Shown: positions 38,231-44,114 of the stretch, in pieces | Layout: the number at the start of each line of letters is the position of its first letter | Position numbering within the stretch: position 1 is the stretch's first letter | Translations under genes and position numbers: made by a program | Notes under the pieces: generated by a model | What the model was told of the DNA's origin: nothing | Databases searched by the model: none | Seen by the model: the letters and a program-made list of their open reading frames with translations, nothing else | Assembly (NCBI GenBank): GCA_014859965.1 | Contig: JACZKQ010000089.1 | Span: forward strand, 1-64,000 | Direction of reading: 5' to 3' | Source of the DNA: Phycisphaerae bacterium | GTDB taxonomy: Bacteria > Planctomycetota > Phycisphaerae > Sedimentisphaerales > Anaerohalosphaeraceae | DNA length: 64,000 nucleotides

Positions 38231-39271
38231 CTATCCCAAATCCACACCGGCGATATGCGCCCCGCACGCCGGGCAGGCGGAATCCTTGATCGCATTGGAG
38301 CGTATGCTGTACCCGATCCGCTCGATGAGACGCTCGCCGCACCGCCAGCAATGCGTCGACTCGGCCTTCGAGCCGGGCAGGTTGCCCACATAGACGTAGC
38401 GCAGACCCGCCTGGCGGCCGATGTCGAGGGCCCGCTGCAGCGTTGCGGCCGGCGTGGGCGGCGTGTCCGTCATCTCGTAGGTCGGATAGAAGCGGCTCAC
38501 GTGCCACGGCACATCCGGCGAGGCCTCGTTGGCGATGAACCCGGCAATCCGCCCAAGCTCGTCGTCGGAGTCGTTCTCGCCGGGAATGATCAGCGTCGTC
38601 AATTCCATCCAGATATTCGTATTGCGGGCAATATAGCGGATCGAATCCAGCACGGGCTCCAGATGCGCCTTGCAGAGGCTGCGGTAGTAGCCCTCGGTGA
38701 ACGCCTTAAGGTCGATATTGATCGCATCGAGCCACGGCGCGGCGAAATCGATCGCCTGCGTGGTCATGTAACCGTTGCTGACGAAGACGTTGGCCAGTCC
38801 CCTCTGGCGGGCGACAACCGCGGTCTCGGCACAAAGCTCCATGAAAATCGTCGGCTCAGTGTAAGTGTAGGCGATACTGCCGCACCCAGCCCGCACGGCC
38901 GCCGAGACGATCTCCTGCGGACTGTAGGGCTGTCCGTCGATGGCGCCTTTCTCAAGGACCACCTGACTGATCTGCCAGTTTTGGCAGAAGCCGCACCGGA
39001 AGTTGCAGCCGGGCGTGCTAATGGAAAAACTTCGGGTGCCGGGCTGGAAGTGGAACAGCGGTTTTTTTTCAATCGGATCGTCACCTGCCGCACACACTCT
39101 ATCGTAGACGAGCGAATACAGCACGCCGCCGATATTCTTTCGCACCGCGCAGTGTCCGACCTTGCCGTCGGCGATCAGACATCGCCAGTTGCAAAGAAAG
39201 CAATTGACTTTCTTGTCGGCCGCAGGCTCCCAGAGCACGGCCTGCTTCAGCTTGCGTTCTGTGGTCGCCAT
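38231..39271 (-). CDS. amrS: AmmeMemoRadiSam system radical SAM enzyme (AmrS/PFL-activase-like)
   Basis: The 346-residue protein has the radical SAM cluster motif Cys89-X3-Cys93-X2-Cys96 (CNFRCGFC), an N-terminal Cys set (C24, C27, C31, C41) and a C-terminal double CxxC (HCWRCG, ACPACG) that may bind zinc. GCGSIAYTYTEPTIF is typical of the family. In many genomes it occurs with an AMMECR1 protein and a Memo-like protein; neither is in this window. The reaction is not established. It is preceded on the same strand only by a gap with no gene. Confidence 0.9.
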   Translation of the reverse strand: MATTERKLKQAVLWEPAADKKVNCFLCNWRCLIADGKVGHCAVRKNIGGVLYSLVYDRVCAAGDDPIEKKPLFHFQPGTRSFSISTPGCNFRCGFCQNWQISQVVLEKGAIDGQPYSPQEIVSAAVRAGCGSIAYTYTEPTIFMELCAETAVVARQRGLANVFVSNGYMTTQAIDFAAPWLDAINIDLKAFTEGYYRSLCKAHLEPVLDSIRYIARNTNIWMELTTLIIPGENDSDDELGRIAGFIANEASPDVPWHVSRFYPTYEMTDTPPTPAATLQRALDIGRQAGLRYVYVGNLPGSKAESTHCWRCGERLIERIGYSIRSNAIKDSACPACGAHIAGVDLG

Positions 39272-39632: not shown

Positions 39633-39663
39633 AAAAAGAAAGGTCTGCCCAAAGACAGACCTT
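39633..39663 (-). terminator. Rho-independent terminator of the small RNA
   Basis: On the minus strand AAGGTCTG (39663-39656), an 8-base loop and CAGACCTT (39647-39640) form a perfect 8-bp stem followed by TCTTTTT. Confidence 0.75.
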
Positions 39664-39865
39664 GTATAGTCAGGCAAACCTCCGCAAGAGCCGTGAACGG
39701 CGCCTTTGAAAAGAACCCTCTAATTCAAAGTGGGCAGTCGTTGCTTGCGTCCGAAAGTCCTGTCATGCAGGCGTTTCCGATCCGTCAAGGCCTGACCTCC
39801 CTTTGCGAGGGCATCGGTTCTTTCAAATGTCATCGCCATCACGCACACCACAGGGGTCACCTGCT
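39633..39865 (-). ncRNA. Structured small RNA, candidate 6S RNA
   Basis: A strong promoter, about 200 bases of non-coding sequence and a rho-independent terminator define an RNA of about 230 nt downstream of typA. Its 5' part (CAGGTGACC, then CGTGATGGCG) pairs with the part just before the terminator (CGCCGTTCACGG, then GGTTTGCCTG), closing the molecule into a rod. A CTTTGAA/TTCAAAG hairpin (39712-39741 region) sits on the 3' side of a central unpaired zone, where E. coli 6S RNA has its own CCTTGAAC hairpin. More hairpins cap the far end. Length without the terminator (about 195 nt) also fits 6S RNA, the RNA polymerase decoy. The identity is inferred from architecture; no search was possible. 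Confidence 0.55.
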
Positions 39866-39871
39866 TATTTA

Positions 39872-39900
39872 TATATAGCACAGCTTCGTGCCAAAAGCAA
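39872..39900 (-). promoter_or_regulatory. Promoter of the small RNA
   Basis: On the minus strand TTGCTT (39900-39895) and TATATA (39877-39872) are separated by exactly 17 bases, with an A/T-rich discriminator and predicted start near 39865. It lies between the typA stop (39983) and the RNA body. Confidence 0.6.
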
Positions 39901-39982: not shown

Positions 39983-41833
39983 TTATTTGCGCGCATCGCG
40001 CCGCCGGTCCGACTCTTTCAGCAATCGTTTGCGCATTCGAATCGTAGTGGGGCAGGCTTCCACCAGTTCGTCATCCTGAATGTATTCCATCGCCGCCTCA
40101 AGGCTCATTTTGCGTGCCGGACGAACTTTGGCCGCGTCATCCTTGCCGGAGGCGCGCACGTTCGTCAACTGTTTGGCCTTGGCGACGTTTACCGGAATAT
40201 CGTTTTCCTTGCAGTGCTCTCCCACCACCTGCCCTTCGTACACCTGCTCTCCGGGCGCGACAAAAAAGATACCCCGATCAAACAGTCCATCCAGCGCATA
40301 GGCCGTCACCTGCCCGGTGGTCGTTGCGATCATCACACCGGCCTTGCGCTGCGGAATGGACCCGCGCATGGGCTCGTACCGCTCGAACGTATGGTGCATC
40401 ACCGCTCGTCCCTGGGTCGCGTTCAGCATCCGCGCGTGCAGCCCGAACAGGCCCCGCGACGGAATCATAAACTCCATGTGAATAAAATCACTCGCCCCGC
40501 GCTTGGCGTCCATCTTCATAATTTCGCTGCGTCGATCCCCAAGCAGGCTCATCACCGCGCTCTGACAATCCAGCGGGCAATCCACGGCCAGGAGCTCAAT
40601 CGGCTCATACCGACGCCCCTCCACAAGGCGAATGATGACATTCGGCTTGCCCACGCACACCTCATATCCCTCGCGCCGCATGTTTTCCAGCAGAATACCC
40701 AGGTGCATCAGCCCCCGTCCCGATACCGTAAACTCCTCCGGCGTCGCGCCCGGGTCCACCCGCAGCGCCACGTTGCGCTCCAGTTCCTTTCGCAGCCGCT
40801 CGCCGATCTGTCGGCTCGTCACATACTTGCCGTCGCGTCCGGCGAACGGACCGTCGTTGACCCGGAAGGTCATCGTCATCGTCGGCTCATCGACCGCCGC
40901 GACGGACAGGGCCGTCGGCCGATCCGCACAGGCAATGGTATCTCCGATCTCAACCGGATCCAGCCCCGAAATAGCACAAATATCGCCTGCCTGGACCGAG
41001 AAAACCCGCTTGCGCCCCAATCCGTTGAATTGGTGAATGTGCATCACTTTCTGTTGTGTGTGCAGCCCCTGCTTGTCGATCACCGTCACGCGCTGCCCTT
41101 CGCTGACGTCACCTGCAAAAACCTTGCCGATCGCGATACGCCCCACGTAGTCGGACCATTCCTGGTTTGTCACAAGCATCTGCAGCGGTGCATCGGCAAC
41201 CGCCTTTGGCGACGGAACATACTCGATAATCGCATCGAAAATCGCCTTGAGCGTCGTCGTTTTCACCGCCAGATCCGTCGTCGCCCAGCCCTCTCGGGCG
41301 GAGGCGTAGACCACCGGAAAATCCAGCGACGTATCGTTCGCCCCCAGGCTCACCAACAGATCGAACACCTCGTCCACCACGTCGTTCGGCCGGCTGTTTG
41401 CGCGGTCCACCTTGTTCACCACGACGATGGGCCGCAGCCCATTTTCCAGCGCCTTGGTCAGGACGAATCGCGTCTGCGGCATCGGCCCGTCAAATGCATC
41501 CACCAGCAGCAGCACCCCGTCGGCCATCTTGAGCACCCGCTCCACCTCGCCGCCGAAATCGGCGTGGCCCGGGGTGTCAATAATATTGATCTTGTATTCG
41601 TCTCCTGCACCGTTGATGTACTGAATCGAACAGTTCTTGCTCAGGATTGTGATGCCCCGCTCCCGCTCCAGAGGGTTCGAGTCCATGATCAACCCGTGCT
41701 CGCTCCCCGCCAGCTTGTCCAGCTCCTCATCCCGGAACATCCCGGACTGATAAAGTAACCCGTCCACCAGCGTCGTCTTGCCGTGGTCGACATGTGCAAT
41801 AATCGCTACGTTGCGAATAGAATCTGAATACAT
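39983..41833 (-). CDS. typA: Ribosome-associated GTPase TypA/BipA
   Basis: The 616-residue translational GTPase has G1 [10 protein letters not shown]2 in ERERGITI, G3 [12 protein letters not shown] and G4 NKVDR, then EF-G-like domains II, III and V, and the BipA-specific C-terminal domain with [14 protein letters not shown]-like sequence and ERRDARK at the tail. It acts in 50S subunit assembly and stress or cold adaptation. I use ATG 41833; the frame extends to 41887 but [18 protein letters not shown] matches the usual start. No strong ribosome site precedes it. Confidence 0.96.
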
Positions 41834-42080
41834 AATGCGCTCGAATAAACCTATGAGATAACTGTTGACCGGGGCGGAAATCCCCACACATACAAACTCT
41901 CCATTCTAACCGTCCCGAACCCCGAAAGCAACAATTACTTCCGCCCCGCCGAAAAGTTCATTACATCGCCCGCCGGAGATACACTGAGAAAGCTCCTTTG
42001 ATCGTCGATTTGAGGGTCTGCATAATTCTGTCCGAACGGGTCGATGCTGCAGGCAAATCAAAGGAGGAAGTCCGAAGTTA

Positions 42081-42242: not shown

Positions 42243-44114
42243 GTGCCGGGAATAAGCCTTTTGTGCGAGATGGGCGACCAGCAGCAGGTTTCGGCGCAAT
42301 CGTTGCGGCGAAGTCTGGAGCGTACCTACCGCGCAGAGGAGCAGTCGGTACGTGTTCTCATGGACACACCGCATTGTATACTCGGCGCGGCGATCCCGGA
42401 GTATTATCCGCTTCGCATTTTCGAGAACGACACCCTGTTCGTGTGTCTGGAGGGCCGTATCTACGGTCTGTCTGACAATGCCGTTGATCGACAGCTTATG
42501 CAACTGGGCCAACGAGTAACCAGCCACCGGGATGAGTTCAAGAACGAACTGCGACAATGGCTTCTTAATACGGATGGGCAGTTCATTTGTGTGATCGCCC
42601 ACAAGGGGTCCGGCAGAACCGTCCTTTTCAACGATGTTTTCGGCCGCCTGCCGCTGTATTACCATCTCTCAGAGCGGCGAGGCGTCTTTTCCAGAGACCT
42701 TTCGCTCGTATCCGAAACAACCGGCCGCAGTGAATTTGATCGCCAGTCCATCTGGCAGTATCTCCTTCTTCTGTACTGCCTTGAATACCGAACCTTGCTG
42801 AAGGATGTATTTCGATTGCCGGCGGCCAGCCTCGTCATGATTGACACAGCGGCAGGCGCGATTCAGAAAGAGGCGGTGTACACTTTTGATTTCCAACAGA
42901 AGCAGAATGAACTGACGTCACTGGAGGCGAATGCCGAACAGTTGGCGGATCTCCTGACGGAGGCATGTCGTACGCGCACGGACGCCGACAGGACGACAGT
43001 TCTGTCGTTGAGCGGCGGACTCGACTCGCGCGCCCTCGCGGGAGCCCTGAAGCGGGCAGGACGCCCTTTCGAGACGGCAAGTTGGCTGGATGCGGGCAGG
43101 CGGGCAAAGACCGATGTTGAGGTTGCCGGCGAGGTGGCCGAGGCGCTCGGCGTCGAACGATGGCTTTGCGAACCGGCGCCGGCGACCGGGGCCGATGTTC
43201 TTGAACTGCTCAGGATCAAGACTGGGCAGGTTTTCCTGGGAATCCCACACGCGTTACAATATTTCAGGAACTTGAATGGCCGGTATGGGGGCAGGCTGAT
43301 TTATTTTTCAGGTAACGGCGGCGACAAAGTTATGCCCGACCTCAGACCTGCCAGGAAACTGCGATCCCTTAACCAACTGGTGGCACACCTGTTGAAGTCT
43401 AACCAAGTGTTCCCCTTGAAGATGGTTTCGCAACTGACAGGAACCGACGAAGAAGAAATCCTTTCGGAACTAAAGACCCTGCTGTCGTCATTTCCGGAGA
43501 GATCGCTTCAGCAGAAATACGTGCATTTCATCATCTGTCAACGCGGCTTCATGCGTTTTCTGGAGGGCGATGAGCGGCAGCGGTTCTTTTTTGAGATCGC
43601 TGCTCCATTCTGGTCGCCGGGCTTCTTTTTCTACGCGATGAATTGTCCGGATGAGCAGAAGCACGGCAACCGGCTGTACGCTCGTATGCTTCAGAATTTG
43701 AATTGCAGCCTGGCAGGCATCGATCGCGCCATAGAGGGCAGACGTGTCGACATTATTGTGCCCGATCCGGCGGCAACCCCGTTGGCGGATCGTTTACGAC
43801 GATTGCCGAATCCGATTCGTTTTGCCCGCAGAACACTGAGGGGGCACGGCAGTATTACACAGACGGTTAAGCCGGCCGGCCACGTTCACTCCGCGTCGGT
43901 ACTGGACTGTCTTCGCAATCAGAGTCGCCGGTGTGCGGTCATTGGCGAATACTTCCTGCTTGATAAGGTGAATGCGCTGCTGGATGATCCGTCCTCCTGT
44001 AAACGAGATGCAGTCTCGGCGATACTGACCGTGTTTTCCACGATGGAATGGCTGACGGATAAGCGAAGCACGCTTGAGGATTATCATGATACGGTAATGG
44101 ATCCCTTTATGTAA
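42243..44114 (+). CDS. Asparagine synthetase-like protein lacking the glutaminase nucleophile
   Basis: The 623-residue protein follows the AsnB plan. The N-terminal Ntn-like domain starts M-P-G-I-S where active enzymes have M-C-G-I, so the catalytic Cys2 is proline and glutamine hydrolysis should be lost. The synthetase half keeps the ATP-pyrophosphatase loop (LSLSGGLDSRALA) and FSGNGGDKVM, which corresponds to the SGEGADE loop but is altered. It could adenylate a sugar acid or peptide carboxylate and use free ammonia or an amine. GTG 42243 has AAGGA at 8 bases. It is the first gene of the polysaccharide region, followed after 32 bases by the flippase. Confidence 0.82.
   Translation: MPGISLLCEMGDQQQVSAQSLRRSLERTYRAEEQSVRVLMDTPHCILGAAIPEYYPLRIFENDTLFVCLEGRIYGLSDNAVDRQLMQLGQRVTSHRDEFKNELRQWLLNTDGQFICVIAHKGSGRTVLFNDVFGRLPLYYHLSERRGVFSRDLSLVSETTGRSEFDRQSIWQYLLLLYCLEYRTLLKDVFRLPAASLVMIDTAAGAIQKEAVYTFDFQQKQNELTSLEANAEQLADLLTEACRTRTDADRTTVLSLSGGLDSRALAGALKRAGRPFETASWLDAGRRAKTDVEVAGEVAEALGVERWLCEPAPATGADVLELLRIKTGQVFLGIPHALQYFRNLNGRYGGRLIYFSGNGGDKVMPDLRPARKLRSLNQLVAHLLKSNQVFPLKMVSQLTGTDEEEILSELKTLLSSFPERSLQQKYVHFIICQRGFMRFLEGDERQRFFFEIAAPFWSPGFFFYAMNCPDEQKHGNRLYARMLQNLNCSLAGIDRAIEGRRVDIIVPDPAATPLADRLRRLPNPIRFARRTLRGHGSITQTVKPAGHVHSASVLDCLRNQSRRCAVIGEYFLLDKVNALLDDPSSCKRDAVSAILTVFSTMEWLTDKRSTLEDYHDTVMDPFM

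Follow-up and report, generated by a model that had tools for sequence, protein, structure and literature searches.

The window analysed here, a stretch of 64,000 nucleotides (64 kb) from a Phycisphaerae bacterium, contains about 195 bases between a promoter-like site and a terminator on the minus strand, downstream of typA. The locus raises the question of whether these bases encode the 6S RNA of the organism, as the initial annotation had proposed, or a similarly shaped RNA of a new class, which it had offered as the alternative. 6S RNA, which is widespread in bacteria, holds RNA polymerase by mimicking an open promoter. The features considered are as follows, in the order in which they are read along the minus strand.

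39983-41887, minus strand: typA, with TypA/BipA domains (domain scan)
39872-39900, minus strand: promoter-like site TTGCTT-17-TATATA, seen in the sequence; most relatives have a site of this kind about equally far away
39669-39865, minus strand: match of R1, a clade model made from the relatives together with the window sequence; 5' end expected near 39865
39675-39859, minus strand: 6S RNA body, RF00013 positions 1-187 (score 52.2 bits, gathering score 46.4; covariation in 51 sequences)
39816-39827, minus strand: 5' strand of the helix that adjoins the central bubble, TTTGAAAGAACC, predicted to serve as the product RNA template as well (helix supported by pair counts)
39813, minus strand: U44-equivalent, where the template of the product RNA AUCGGUUCUUUCAAAUGUCA is predicted to start, at the same RF00013 position as U44 of E. 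coli ssrS
39705-39718, minus strand: 3' strand of the same helix, GGGTTCTTTTCAAA, which pairs with 39827-39816
39633-39663, minus strand: intrinsic terminator (10-pair stem, 4-base loop and T-rich tail)
38231-39271, minus strand: radical-SAM gene (domain scan)

The 6S model RF00013 of Rfam release 15 matched the minus strand at 39859-39675 over its full length (model positions 1-187 of 187). The score of 52.2 bits exceeded the gathering score of 46.4 by only 6 bits. In the whole window RF00013 was the only Rfam family to score above its threshold, and it did so once. The suhB model gave a weak hit at the terminator (20.3 bits, with a cut-off of 41), which was set aside as a match to terminators in general. 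The RF00013 match spans 185 nt, and about 200 nt lie between the expected start and the terminator stem, in line with the approximately 180-200 nt of 6S RNAs. The search with RF00013 and the search with the model built from relatives both gave a single 6S copy in the genome. The window sequence is itself a member of R1, so its own match to R1 is by construction. Together with the covariation found in related planctomycetes, the match bore out the proposal of a 6S RNA and left the new RNA class superfluous. The best explanation, almost certainly correct, is that a planctomycete of the Phycisphaerae (Sedimentisphaerales-type) carries its single 6S RNA (ssrS) gene here, with its own promoter, its own terminator and an open-promoter-like fold, and comparison with the Rfam family and with relatives serves to identify the gene. 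The locus is a canonical 6S RNA, a further member of a known family, which Rfam-based annotation would call.

The ends of the gene were also compared with those of its relatives. On the minus strand, TTGCTT (39900-39895) is separated by 17 bases from TATATA (39877-39872). The site scored 7 of 12 against the sigma-70 consensus, which is weak, and the promoter scan reported none at the locus, the site lying under the threshold of the scan. The promoter with 17-base spacing claimed in the initial annotation is thus present though weak, and most relatives carry a TTGNNN-17-TATANT-like site at a comparable distance. The position of this site suggests a 5' end of the RNA near 39865. The terminator had been noted as well, and it was found as a 10-pair stem, AAGGTCTGTC-TTTG-GGCAGACCTT, followed by TCTTTTT (39663-39633); relatives carry terminators at the same place.

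To evaluate the structure of the RNA, folding energies and pair counts were compared with those of controls. The minus strand folded with -86.4 kcal/mol (z -2.89), which none of 200 shuffles equalled, and the opposite strand gave a z of -2.01. In the RNAalifold structure of the 51 aligned sequences, which is favoured by having been derived from the same alignment that was used for the test, 93.9% of cells were in standard pairs compared to 83.8% in shuffles, and sliding one strand lowered the paired cells to 35-45% (at most 44.8%). Double changes occurred in 27 of the 42 pairs, and the double-changed cells numbered 224, compared to 69.7 in shuffles. The Rfam consensus structure, as fitted to the window sequence, was also put to the covariation test. 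It had 77.9% of cells paired, compared to 73.0% in shuffles and 42-47% in slid versions, and its covariation score was 0.227 compared to 0.140 in the control; the inner-arm pairs (helix 4) were formed in only 61.3% of cells. These comparisons strongly support a rod, kept by covariation, in which a central bubble lies between a closing stem and a terminal arm. The rod had originally been proposed from the pairing of the ends of the roughly 195 bases, and both the folding and the compensatory changes in homologues agreed with it.

In E. coli 6S, synthesis of the product RNA begins at U44, which is the last base of GCCGAU. To place the equivalent of this base, E. coli ssrS was aligned to RF00013, and the window carried ACCGAU at the position of GCCGAU, with its U at 39813. 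Among the 51 sequences the motif was CCGAT in 43, CCTAT in 7 and CTAAT in 1, and comparison in this way shows the template site. Reading the template back from 39813 gave the predicted product RNA 5'-AUCGGUUCUUUCAAAUGUCA. The helix adjacent to the bubble, formed by TTTGAAAGAACC (39827-39816) and GGGTTCTTTTCAAA (39718-39705), was paired in 83.0% of cells, which is close to the 79.3% of the same helix slid by one column, and its covariation score exceeded those of all shuffles.

Based on these features and on what is typical of the 6S family, a mechanism can be proposed. The gene would be transcribed from its own promoter, starting near 39865, to the terminator ending near 39633. The RNA would fold into the rod described above and, by resembling an open promoter, would tie up RNA polymerase that carries the primary sigma factor; membership of the 6S family is what suggests the binding. 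Members of this family are typically abundant transcripts whose level rises in stationary phase. The genome encodes a primary sigma factor (TIGR02393, RpoD-type, 362.9 bits against a cut-off of 354). Release would come once a short product RNA has been made, with the U at 39813 as the template start and copying running back into the 5' strand. For transcription and product RNA synthesis, too, we infer the behaviour of this RNA from its family.

The internal CTTTGAA/TTCAAAG hairpin described in the initial annotation can form in the window sequence, but it found no support in relatives, where 56.4% of its cells were paired, no better than in slid versions. The 3' strands of the relatives, when folded, showed no average gain over shuffles (mean z -0.11) in a rough test, as the start of the segment was set by a short motif and was misplaced in several sequences. 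What the 3' bases of the hairpin pair with in relatives is the 5' strand TTTGAAAGAACC. A hairpin on the 3' side of the central bubble was therefore rejected as a conserved release switch, on the pair counts and on the folding compared with shuffles. Once product synthesis opens the TTTGAAAGAACC/GGGTTCTTTTCAAA helix, its 3' bases would be free and could fold into the CTTTGAA/TTCAAAG hairpin. Since the hairpin lacks conservation in the clade, it was left out of the proposed mechanism. Two loci (L009 and L012, in genomes G042 and G046) have a 10-pair hairpin in the GATTGCAAGG...TTGCAATC region, with z about -3, on the 3' strand of the central bubble, a site where most relatives have none.

The RNA lies between typA and the radical-SAM gene, and all three are on one strand. 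Instead of a free-standing RNA gene, this arrangement would fit part of a neighbouring transcript, either the 3' untranslated region or an attenuator belonging to typA or the leader of the radical-SAM gene that lies downstream. In relatives, however, the RNA adjoins other genes and has its own promoter-like site and terminator, and neither typA nor the radical-SAM gene was found beside it in the other loci tested (tblastn, about 1.5 kb on each side). We therefore regard a part of either neighbouring transcript as exceedingly improbable. The position by typA holds true in the window but is peculiar to its genome among the loci tested. The upstream same-strand neighbour in 26 of 51 related loci belonged to one protein family, whose scanned representative was PheT, the phenylalanyl-tRNA synthetase beta chain. 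In these 26 loci (L002-L031, L062-L081) the 6S gene comes after a pheT-type gene, mostly at 50-400 bases, and in the genome of the window it comes after typA. Evidently the 6S gene of the window moved or its surroundings were rearranged. In E. coli, by contrast, ssrS is located beside zapA and fau. On the plus strand of the window, a 623-residue open frame at 42243-44114 has an asparagine-synthase-type look by eye.

Rod-like RNAs can resemble 6S, and the RF00013 score at the locus was modest, 52.2 bits compared to 139.8 bits for E. coli ssrS. A structured RNA of similar shape with another partner might thus be considered, such as a binder of the core enzyme. PMC9130861 describes Ms1 of actinobacteria in these terms, as a small RNA that is structurally related to 6S and yet binds core RNA polymerase, and its likeness to the RNA of the window lies in this small, 6S-related shape. 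Here the 6S model itself matched, over its full length and including the U44-equivalent CCGAU that is conserved in relatives, and the window had no other Rfam family at threshold. Nothing at the locus points to Ms1, and an RNA of this type appears very unlikely. The 6S RNA gene accounts for the full-length match, the rod with its central bubble, the U44-equivalent, the length, and the flanking promoter-like site and terminator.

To investigate the distribution of the gene, relatives and a larger sample of the phylum were searched. Among 59 genomes belonging to the same family or order, RF00013 matched 51, and a plain DNA search found the gene in 38. Four of the eight genomes missed by RF00013 (G001, G021, G036 and G056) were recovered by DNA similarity. 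A 30-base motif of the RNA was found in named assemblies of Sedimentisphaerales, Phycisphaerales and other Planctomycetota, and the lineage assigned to the gene rests on these occurrences. In 393 planctomycete genomes that were at least 90% complete, searched with the stricter filters of Infernal, under which a non-match is not absence, RF00013 matched 175 at E <= 0.001, and just 91 exceeded the Rfam cut-off. The other 84 fell under the cut-off, and routine annotation would therefore miss them. The clade model matched 139 of the 393 genomes, 21 of them having no RF00013 match, which brought the union to 196. On balance, we are inclined to regard 6S RNA as widespread but divergent in Planctomycetota, present in about half of the 393 genomes (196), with many matches below the cut-off. 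The gene of the window is one well-supported example of planctomycete 6S RNA and settles a small annotation question, in that a planctomycete carries a canonical 6S RNA. For a lineage whose 6S RNA was scarcely treated in the literature searched, it also yields an alignment of 51 sequences and a prediction of the product RNA. One genome of the phylum sample (G284) had two 6S matches, on contigs C1 and C12, by both models.
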